Assembly: GCA_030429705.1 (NCBI GenBank)
Contig: JAUIES010000001.1
Location: forward strand, 620,001-684,000
Source: Phycisphaerae bacterium
Lineage (GTDB): Bacteria > Planctomycetota > Phycisphaerae > Phycisphaerales > UBA1924
Reading direction: 5' to 3'
Length of the DNA: 64,000 bases
Shown here: one piece after another, positions 52,952 to 59,255 of the stretch
How positions within the stretch are numbered: position 1 is the stretch's first letter
Layout: every line of letters starts with the position of its first letter
Notes under the pieces: generated by a model
The model's database searches: none
The model's input: the letters and a program-made list of their open reading frames with translations, nothing else
What the model was told of the DNA's origin: nothing
Made by a program: the position numbers and the translations under genes

Positions 52952-53027
52952 AACGAGCCCCGACCGTGAGGGAGGGGGCGATGCGTGCACGAACGCCTGG
53001 CCCCCTCCCTCACGGTCGGGGCTCGTT
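52952..53027. repeat. Large perfect inverted repeat, QRAPTVREG-type palindromic element
   Basis: Two arms, 52952-52979 and 53000-53027, are perfect reverse complements over 28 bases. The right arm core reads CCCTCCCTCACGGTCGGGGC and ends GCTCGTT followed by GAG. The 20-base loop contains a further GCGT/ACGC stem. The element lies between the convergent kinase and glyS genes and would form a very stable RNA hairpin on either strand, so it may also stop transcription. The same arm sequence recurs at 55177-55203 and, less exactly, at 55216-55242 inside ispH, marking it as a dispersed repeat. Confidence 0.93.
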
Positions 53028-53044: not shown

Positions 53045-54772
53045 TCACACGCCGAGTTTGCCCGCCAGAAAGTCCCCCACCTGGTCGATCGCAAGGCGGC
53101 TCTGCTCGAGCGTGTCGCGATCGCGGACAGTGACGGTCTGGTCGGTCAGGGTTTCGCTATCAATGGTGAAGCAGAACGGGCAGCCGGCTTCGTCCATACG
53201 GGCGTAGCGCTTGCCGATCGACTGCTTCTCGTCATATTCGATCGTGCCGAGGTGCCCGAAGCGTTTACGCAGTTCCGCGAACAATGGCTCGGCGATCTCG
53301 GGCATGCCGTCCTTCTTGACCAACGGAAACACCGCTGCCTTGATCGGCGAAATACGCGGGTGGAACTTCATGTAGACGCCCGACGCCCGGTCAGGATCAG
53401 GCGTGTATGCCTCGCACAGGATCGCGAGCACGCCGCGATCGAGGCCGGCGGATGGCTCGATGACATGGGGCAGATACCACTCGCCCTTGGGTTGGCCGTT
53501 CTTTGCCAGTTCGCCCCGGGTCTTGTCGTGATACTCCATCTTCTTCTTGGAGTGTTCCTGATGCTGCTTCAGGTCGAAATCAGTTCGATCCGCGATGCCC
53601 TCGAGTTCGCCATAGCCGGGCGCGGTGAACGGGAACTTGTATTCGATATCGCTCGTCCCCGCCCCTTCCTTGGCGTAGTGGGCGAGTTCGCCCTCGTCGT
53701 GCTCACGGAGGATGAGATTTTCGCCTTCGAGCCCGATCCCCTGCCACCACGCCATGCGCCAATCGCGCCAGAAGACATACCACGCCTTCGAATCATCGGG
53801 ATGGCAGAAAAACTCGATTTCCATCTGCTCGAACTCGCGGCTACGGAAGGTGAAGTTGCGAGGCGTGACCTCGTTGCGGAAAGCCTTGCCGGTCTGGGCG
53901 ATGCCGAAGGGGAGCGCGACGCGCGTCGAGTCGACGACATTCTTAAAGTTGATGAAGATGCCCTGGGCGGTCTCGGGGCGGAGGTAGACTTTGTTGTCTT
54001 CATTGAAGACGGCACCGGTAAATGTATGATTCATTAGGTTGAAAGCACGAGGTTCCGACAAACCACCGATTTTACCTGTGAAAGGTGAGGGGACTAGATC
54101 AGGATAAAACCTGAGCGCAAGGTTTGTAGTAGTAATCAATGCTTTCTCGGGTCCTTTCCCGAAATCAGCCATCACGAGCACTCCGAACTGATAACCCTCC
54201 GAATATCCAGTCTTCCCGATCGATTTGATCCCGACAATCTTCTGCAGAGATTTGTCCGATTCCAGTAAAGAGACGGCCTCATCTGGTCCGGAGGCGATGA
54301 CCGTCGCATTTGGTATGGCCACTTCGGAGTGCATTTTGAGGGTTGGTTCGCCACCGGCGGTGTCGATCGTGTCAGTGGTTCGCTTGAGCGGATCGGAATA
54401 TCGATAGATTCCTTGAAGGTGATCCGCGCGAAATCTTCGACCATCGGGTGTCGATTTGTCTGTAACCATCGGATCGTTGAACCCGCCGACATGCCCCGAC
54501 GCTTCCCACACCTTCGGGTTTTGGATGATGCATGAATCCAGCGGCACGATCTCGACGGGCTTGCCATCCGGGCCCATCTGTCCGCCCGCGCCGAGCATGA
54601 CCACATCGGTCCACCACGCATCGCGGAGGTTTTTCTTGAGTTGAGCGCCGAGCGGGCCGTAGTCCCAGAAGCCGTTGATCCCGCCGTAGATTTCGGATGC
54701 CTGAAAGATGAACCCGCGTCTTTTGCACAGGGCCATGATGTCGTCCATTGATTTCGTCGCGTTGTCCGCCAT
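53045..54772 (-). CDS. glyS: Glycyl-tRNA synthetase, single-chain (alpha2) type
   Basis: Class II synthetase charging tRNA-Gly. The 575-residue protein starts MDDIMALCKRRGFIFQASEIYGGINGFWDYGPLGAQLKKNL, contains motif 2/3 landmarks YLRPETAQGIFINFKNV, PFGIAQTGKAFRNEVTPRNFTFRSREFEQMEIEFF and VIEPSAGLDRGVLAILCEAY, and ends with the anticodon-binding domain (YARMDEAGCPFCFTIDSETLTDQTVTVRDRDTLEQ). The cysteines of the usual zinc-like insert around the RADHL motif are missing. In their place is a segment of over 100 residues (about 125-255) whose codons are noticeably less GC-rich than the rest. ispH starts about 1.2 kb upstream on the same strand, with its 3' end close by (78 bases). Confidence 0.95.
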   Translation of the reverse strand: MADNATKSMDDIMALCKRRGFIFQASEIYGGINGFWDYGPLGAQLKKNLRDAWWTDVVMLGAGGQMGPDGKPVEIVPLDSCIIQNPKVWEASGHVGGFNDPMVTDKSTPDGRRFRADHLQGIYRYSDPLKRTTDTIDTAGGEPTLKMHSEVAIPNATVIASGPDEAVSLLESDKSLQKIVGIKSIGKTGYSEGYQFGVLVMADFGKGPEKALITTTNLALRFYPDLVPSPFTGKIGGLSEPRAFNLMNHTFTGAVFNEDNKVYLRPETAQGIFINFKNVVDSTRVALPFGIAQTGKAFRNEVTPRNFTFRSREFEQMEIEFFCHPDDSKAWYVFWRDWRMAWWQGIGLEGENLILREHDEGELAHYAKEGAGTSDIEYKFPFTAPGYGELEGIADRTDFDLKQHQEHSKKKMEYHDKTRGELAKNGQPKGEWYLPHVIEPSAGLDRGVLAILCEAYTPDPDRASGVYMKFHPRISPIKAAVFPLVKKDGMPEIAEPLFAELRKRFGHLGTIEYDEKQSIGKRYARMDEAGCPFCFTIDSETLTDQTVTVRDRDTLEQSRLAIDQVGDFLAGKLGV

Positions 54773-54850: not shown

Positions 54851-56017
54851 TCACTGGTCCGACAGCCCCTCGATCGTGAGCGGCACCGCGTCGCGGCCAT
54901 AGGTCGCTTTGACGATGCTCGGACTCTCGACACGGATGCGGCGGGCTTCGGGGTCGATGCCGCGCTCGCGCATCGCCCGCTTGAGCGTCACCGGCAGCCC
55001 AAACTCGACGGCTTCTTCGATCACATCGCCCGTGAACAACTCGGCGTGGTGCTCATCGACGAGCAGACGGCAGATCTCGGCGACGAGGTCTTCGGGAGCG
55101 CTAGCACCAGCGGTGAGCAGGATGGTCTGGGTGGGTTCCACGCTCGCGCTTCGGGCTTGTTGAGATGTTGAAGAAACCCCCTCCCTCACGGTCGGGGCTC
55201 GTTGAGGCGTGGGAGACCCCTCCCTTACGGCTGGGGCTCGTTGAGACGAACCGATGAACCACGCCGGGTCAATCTGGCTGGCATCGTCGATCAGTTTGGC
55301 CCGCGTCCCGACATTTTCAGCGATCTCGGTCAGCCGTTGCGAGTTACTCGAGTTGGTCGAGCCGACCACCAGCACCAGGTCGCACTGGGGTGCGAGCGTG
55401 CGGACCGCGTGCTGCCGGTTGGTGGTCGCATAGCAGATGTCTTCACTGGGGGGGGCCTTGATGGCTGGAAACGCCTGCCGAAGGGCGTCGATGATCACGC
55501 CCGCGTCGTCGGTCGAGAGCGTGGTCTGAGTGAGATAGACAAGTCGGCTCGGGTCGTCGATTGTGAGGCCCGCAATATCCTCGGGCGATTCGACCACCTG
55601 GATCGCGCCAGGTGCCTCACCTTGTGTGCCGATGACTTCCTGATGATCGCGGTGCCCCACCAGCAGGATCTGGTACCCCTGCCGGGCGTACCGAATGGCT
55701 TCCGAATGCACCTTGGTCACGAGCGGGCAGGTCGCATCAATCGCGGTCAGGCCTCGTGCCTCGGCTGCCTGGCGCACAGCGGGGCTGATGCCATGGGCGC
55801 TGAACACCACAATCGCTCCCGGGGGCACCTCGTCGATGGATTCGACAAACACCACGCCTCGGTCCTTGAACCGGGTGACGACATGCTTGTTGTGCACGAT
55901 TTCGTGATAGACATAGATCGTCTGGCCGGTGAACACATCGAGAACCTGGTCCACCACATCGATCGCCATGCGAACGCCGGCACAAAAACCCCGTGGATTG
56001 ACCAGAATGACCTGCAT
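54851..56017 (-). CDS. ispH: 4-hydroxy-3-methylbut-2-enyl diphosphate reductase with repeat insertion
   Basis: Last enzyme of the MEP isoprenoid pathway, a 4Fe-4S reductase (also LytB). The 388-residue protein has the three cluster cysteines in NPRGFCAGV (residue 12), DATCPLVTKV and EDICYATTNRQ. It also has VYHEIVHNKHVV, VFSAHGISPAV, VVGSTNSSNSQRL and the late LLTAGASAPEDL. The start at 56017 gives the standard N-terminus MQVILVNPRGFCAGV. It is about 70 residues longer than usual: an insert of about 32 residues (near 259-290, containing QRAPAVREG and QRAPTVREG) lies just before the LLTAGAS strand, and there is a C-terminal tail of about 40. The insert is the in-frame translation of the palindromic repeat found at 52952-53027. 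Confidence 0.95.
   Translation of the reverse strand: MQVILVNPRGFCAGVRMAIDVVDQVLDVFTGQTIYVYHEIVHNKHVVTRFKDRGVVFVESIDEVPPGAIVVFSAHGISPAVRQAAEARGLTAIDATCPLVTKVHSEAIRYARQGYQILLVGHRDHQEVIGTQGEAPGAIQVVESPEDIAGLTIDDPSRLVYLTQTTLSTDDAGVIIDALRQAFPAIKAPPSEDICYATTNRQHAVRTLAPQCDLVLVVGSTNSSNSQRLTEIAENVGTRAKLIDDASQIDPAWFIGSSQRAPAVREGSPTPQRAPTVREGVSSTSQQARSASVEPTQTILLTAGASAPEDLVAEICRLLVDEHHAELFTGDVIEEAVEFGLPVTLKRAMRERGIDPEARRIRVESPSIVKATYGRDAVPLTIEGLSDQ
55177..55203. repeat. Copy of the palindromic-element arm inside ispH (exact)
   Basis: These 27 bases are identical to the right arm of the hairpin at 53001-53027 and continue identically for several more bases (GAGGC). On the ispH coding strand they read QRAPTVREG in frame. 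Confidence 0.93.
55216..55242. repeat. Second, diverged copy of the element arm inside ispH
   Basis: Aligned to the copy at 55177 with a 39-base (13-codon) offset; four of 27 bases differ, and GAG follows as in the other copies. It encodes QRAPAVREG in ispH. The multiple-of-three spacing keeps the reading frame open. Confidence 0.88.
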
Positions 56018-59070: not shown

Positions 59071-59255
59071 TTTTTTGATTGGTTGCACTGACTCAGGTCA
59101 GGATAGAGAAGCCTACACTTGCAGCCCGCCAGACATATGACGCTGGGGCGTTCCGAAGGCGGGTCGGACGCTCCTTAACTCGGGTATGAACCCAAAGTGC
59201 ACGCGATGAACTTTTGGGAGCCGCGTGCTCCCTCGCGTGCGATTCGGGTTCGTGC

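Follow-up and report, generated by a model that had tools for sequence, protein, structure and literature searches.

In-frame insertion of a REP-like hairpin repeat in ispH of a Phycisphaerae bacterium, and of transposases in aminoacyl-tRNA synthetases of its relatives

The ispH gene in the window (the whole stretch of 64,000 nucleotides of Phycisphaerae bacterium DNA that was analysed) carries an in-frame insert composed of three short palindromic repeats. Very probably this insert arose by transposition of repetitive extragenic palindrome (REP) elements into a permissive loop and was filtered for its reading frame by selection; in itself it is probably functionless. The phenomenon is wider than the original prediction for this gene had noted, since it extends to four other genes of the same genome and to whole transposases in the aminoacyl-tRNA synthetases of relatives. 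The features in the window are the following:

54851-56017, minus strand: ispH, open frame of 388 aa (TIGR00216 at 310 bits; matches to E. coli IspH chains)
55136-55252, minus strand: whole ispH insert, about 39 aa (residues ~256-294), delimited by alignments with relatives
55217-55242, minus strand: REP copy 1, family A, three mismatches, read QRAPAVREG
55178-55203, minus strand: REP copy 2, family A, exact, read QRAPTVREG
55136-55161, minus strand: REP copy 3, sister family B (AACAAGCCCGAAGCGCGAGCGTGGAA), four mismatches, read QQARSASVE
52952-53027, no strand assigned: REPIN-like pair of inverted family A copies, arms 52952-52977 and 53002-53027 exact, in the intergenic space between a convergent kinase gene and glyS
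59230-59253, minus strand: further copy of family B, three mismatches

A search of the whole genome found a single copy of ispH, and the gene was found in all 61 genomes searched. The E. coli IspH chains align to residues 1-254 and weakly to residues 297-351, and the three cluster cysteines (GFCAG, DATCP and DICYAT) are unbroken in the translation, as had been claimed. The position of the insert was taken from this alignment, which places it after a helix that ends near residue 254 and before the TAGASAPEDL strand, about 10 residues upstream of the strand with E. coli Ser269, a residue with a role in the enzyme; an AlphaFold model (single sequence, pLDDT 46) was too poor for loop placement and was not used. 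The original prediction described two copies 39 bases apart, adding about 32 residues and matching the arm of the intergenic hairpin: both copies, their spacing, their translation in one frame and the match to the hairpin arm all stand, but the third copy had been overlooked, lies a further 42 nt along, and brings the insert to about 39 residues. The three copies run head-to-tail (starts at 55242, 55203 and 55161) in one shared frame, which is open along the entire insert, and combine two different families (A, A, B) in a single tandem row, which forms no long hairpin (fold z -0.3). Copies 1 and 3 deviate from their consensus in amino acids as well. An intein was also considered; a repeat-coded insert of 39 aa would be too short to hold such a domain, which splices itself out of the protein.

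Family A corresponds to the 26-mer AACGAGCCCCGACCGTGAGGGAGGGG, present in 31 copies (up to 3 mismatches) in the genome searched (3.49 Mb in 8 contigs, 96% complete), and its sister family B to ACGAGCCCGAAGCGCAAGCGAGGG, present in 14 copies; the reversed pattern gave 0 matches for each family. The window alone holds four family A matches (up to 3 mismatches) versus 0.00 expected in shuffles. These counts bear out the proposal of a dispersed palindrome able to enter a housekeeping gene in frame, for which further genomic copies had been called for. The unit is an imperfect hairpin of 26 nt with an unpaired foot (fold CCNC-GA-CC-GTGA-GG-GA-GNGG). Its foot reads (A/C)CGAG, its two stems are CCNC/GNGG and CC/GG, its internal loop is GA/GA and its hairpin loop GTGA; variants keep the same fold. 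The stability of the lone hairpin is close to that of shuffles (z -0.85), and the intergenic pair at 52952-53027 folds into one long hairpin (z -12). A search of public genomes, with both stem positions 9 and 24 left open, returned 139 copies, nearly all from Planctomycetota, in which these positions were G-C in 110, G-T in 15, C-G in 6, A-T in 3 and unpaired in 5; the two positions covary, indicating that stem pairing is conserved. Inverted pairs are frequent among the copies, several of them 48-82 nt long. The family thus has two features of REP/REPIN elements, an imperfect palindrome of 20-40 nt with a conserved unpaired foot, and many dispersed copies often in inverted pairs. The foot reads ACGAG or CCGAG, outside the GTAG and CGTC REP superfamilies.

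The head-to-tail order and near-constant spacing of the ispH copies could also be produced by a local tandem duplication, or by an assembly artefact, merely resembling a dispersed repeat; this is hardly credible given the exact 26-nt identity with dispersed copies, the mixture of two families in the array and a frame that stays open throughout. Under the preferred reading, REP transposition, part of the array may still be a tandem duplication, given that same order. The 39-nt spacing recurs in the valS of a relative (G047), which has five in-frame copies at this interval. Another tandem array of G047, outside valS, has its copies 45-46 nt apart, a difference expected if selection retains multiples of three.

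The comparison with relatives shows that the insert is not an ordinary conserved loop: 28 of the 29 aligned relatives lack it, their loop between WF and TAGASAPEDL being short or modestly longer, and a DNA alignment of ispH with three relatives gives a clean empty site. In the 29th relative (G028) this loop is extended by an insert comparable in length, which holds an inverted pair of an unrelated REP, GGTGGCACGCCTCTCCGAG (23-nt arms, 91%), which also occurs as a perfect inverted pair in frame in the valS of G028. The IspH loop has therefore been entered twice, by different REP families. In a close relative (G032; L255, C14:51277-51341) a family A pair lies just upstream of the ispH start, with none within the gene.

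These data bear on the possibility that the REP-coded peptides have been recruited and now serve IspH, for instance in redox partner binding or regulation, with their sequence under selection. The single frame shared by the three copies and the closeness of the insert to the Ser269 strand would be in keeping with recruitment; we nevertheless judge it unlikely, as the IspH of relatives does without the insert, copies 1 and 3 have diverged at the amino acid level, the loop of G028 is occupied by an unrelated REP, and the ispH elements also lie in unrelated proteins, in several reading frames and on both strands.

The four other genes with in-frame copies in this genome encode unrelated proteins. 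In purB there is an in-frame inverted pair (read QRTPTVREG and PLPDGRGS) that is absent from ten aligned relatives, with a clean empty site in G005; carB has a copy read STSPDHEGGG, in a loop that varies among relatives too and is a less clean case than purB; topoisomerase VI B has three copies; and one lies in a radical SAM gene of the RimO/MiaB-like kind. With ispH, the in-frame copies total ten, of which nine belong to the set of 45 that have up to 3 mismatches. Several further candidates were dropped: at L014, L019, L067 and L075 the open frame enclosing the copy is probably spurious, and in L017, L023 and L028 the copy precedes the likely start codon. In this coding-dense genome copies appear rarer in genes than expected by chance, which points to genes being avoided and not preferred.

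The original prediction likened the repeat to the Rickettsia palindromic elements (RPEs), that is, to a kind adapted to or favouring protein-coding genes, and in-frame insertion in five housekeeping protein genes of one genome is a feature shared with them. Among the RPEs, the larger families measure about 100-150 nt, and they belong to Rickettsiales. Public records that carry the ispH repeat place the present host in Phycisphaerales. Here the unit is 26 nt, relatives link it to a REP-type HUH transposase, and 9 of the 45 copies lie in identified genes, the others being intergenic or in doubtful frames. Membership of the RPEs was set aside on unit length and associated transposase, and we consider it very improbable; a short REP/REPIN, tied in relatives to a HUH (RAYT-like) transposase, fits instead.

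The family and the genes it enters appear to be undescribed, as had been supposed, but the phenomenon itself is known, and ispH is a fresh case of it. Di Nocera et al. 2013 (PMC3733652) report GTAG- and CGTC-tagged REPs that lie in frame within housekeeping genes, among them genes for repair and for tRNA synthetases; these intragenic REPs are single, paired or grouped, code for 20 to 82 residues and are thought to be tolerated in loops or linkers, and RPE-4 and RPE-6 are classed there with the CGTC REPs. The ispH family is likewise a short tagged hairpin found in frame in housekeeping genes, but its foot contains CGAG instead of GTAG or CGTC, and its lineage and genes differ from those in the main text of that study. 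Also known is a planctomycete class of transposase, TnpA(Y1) class 3, an HUH enzyme with NHVH and YV..EQ motifs found mainly in Planctomycetes, whose genes are flanked by several many-copy hairpins with a CnGA foot (PMC6006769). The CCGA of G043 and G047 fits this foot, whereas the ACGA of the Phycisphaerae bacterium is no exact fit. As in REPINs and BIMEs with their RAYT (PMC3116915, PMC2817692), there are dispersed inverted REP pairs and, in relatives, a HUH transposase flanked by its REP; unlike in those systems, the copies number in the tens and not the hundreds, a cognate transposase was not found in this genome, and the ispH order is head-to-tail.

A profile search of the genome for class 3 transposases (alignment A1) gave no match; a weak class 3 protein match at C4:567727 was rejected as a chance hit in another coding region. 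The genome has two Y1 (RAYT-like) genes, L031 (C4:1845448) and L032 (C8:265589), each flanked by inverted repeats of its own (41 nt exact and 85 nt at 84%, respectively) that are unlike the ispH REP. Given these differing palindromes, and with no family A REP within 1.5 kb of either gene, both were ruled out as the source of the REP. The L031 repeat resembles the palindrome adjoining the family A copies at L012 and L025, indicating that the genome holds further REP families. A candidate cognate transposase, not found in this genome, occurs in the relatives: family-A-like REPs lie on both sides at seven of the eight best class 3 loci, compared with any such REP at one of 24 IS200-like control loci. 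The NHVH and YV..EQ motifs of these REP-flanked transposases fit TnpA class 3 (PMC6006769).

The mobility of the REPs is inferred from their distribution. An HUH (Y1) transposase, probably of the TnpA class 3 kind, would move them in the form of single-stranded DNA, and one element would have inserted into the permissive IspH loop and been multiplied to three there, either by renewed insertion or by tandem duplication. Purifying selection on IspH would then have spared only arrays that keep the frame and are free of stops; the consensus in the frame beginning AAC GAG carries a TGA stop, and the copies that use this frame in the valS of G036 have TCA. The insert is presumably translated and tolerated, and we assume it to be neutral. 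Several points count against this model: the lack of a class 3 gene in this genome, the other palindromes that flank its two Y1 genes, the near-shuffle stability of the single hairpin, the less clean carB case, and the head-to-tail ispH order, which departs from the usual inverted pairs. The family may be an orphan here, having moved before its transposase was lost, or the gene may lie in the few percent missing from the assembly.

Complete transposase domains were found within aminoacyl-tRNA synthetases of the relatives. Among the 58 genomes whose valS frame could be read, 12 have a complete HUH (Y1) domain in frame in this gene, in every case within the loop that precedes RYAKTFE.WHDNIRDWCISRQLWWGH. 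Four genomes have an in-frame Y1 domain in leuS, immediately ahead of the editing domain. The loci and genomes are:

valS fusion loci: L259, L260, L261, L262, L265, L267, L269, L270, L271, L275, L293, L315
valS fusion genomes: G036, G047, G002, G044, G016, G007, G043, G017, G039, G003, G024, G051
leuS fusion loci: L264, L266, L268, L272
leuS fusion genomes: G033, G012, G028, G024

Two kinds of transposase occupy the ValRS loop, one of class 3 and one of a different Y1 type, and REP-coded peptides surround them; in the valS of G036 a class 3 domain in frame has such peptides on both sides. Of 11 embedded ValRS domains that were checked, all keep the HUH motif and 10 keep the Y motif, and the five class 3-like domains have NHVH, NHIH or DHVH together with Y....Q. 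In a ValRS tree of 52 genomes the well-supported branches force at least eight changes, which fits repeated insertion, losses and gains not being distinguishable. Public records hold more valS fusions, and they also show REPs lying in frame in uvrB and in the gene for class II ribonucleotide reductase.

Some further observations were made on these genes. In one public Planctomycetota record (L185) the valS-embedded class 3 transposase itself holds an in-frame REP, and a REP pair follows later in ValRS. Two genomes (L145 and L184) have an in-frame REP at the identical position of their class II ribonucleotide reductase, suggesting an old, inherited insertion. In G040 (L263) a Y1 match lies within a frame of 1401 aa. 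In the window, glyS (575 aa) has a long stretch (53960-54440) ahead of its Pfam core, to which the match begins at residue 258; GC is about 50% in this region versus 60% around it.

In the literature searched we found no report of Y1 transposase fusions in ValRS or LeuRS; the class 3 study (PMC6006769), which reports no synthetase insertion, removed proteins that were longer than expected, treating them as fusions or faulty annotations. As far as this literature goes, what is new is the presence of the family in ispH, purB and carB and, above all, of whole transposases in essential synthetases. One tentative reading, which we hold to be possible but doubtful, is that the REP/transposase system of the Phycisphaerales shelters in loops of essential enzymes: the transposase would be translated within ValRS or LeuRS, with an essential gene driving its expression and protecting it from loss, would retain its catalytic residues and would function in fused form, and the ispH array would represent the non-autonomous side of the system.

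A family of hairpins thus repeatedly passes the strictest filter, insertion into indispensable enzymes, apparently under the rule of a permissive loop, a length that is a multiple of three and no stop. The in-frame transposases of ValRS and LeuRS, with no fewer than eight changes on the ValRS tree, would make up a type of host-transposase fusion about which little is known, and the synthetase fusions offer a direct test bed for the activity of REP transposases, for their cost and for the loops that accept whole domains.
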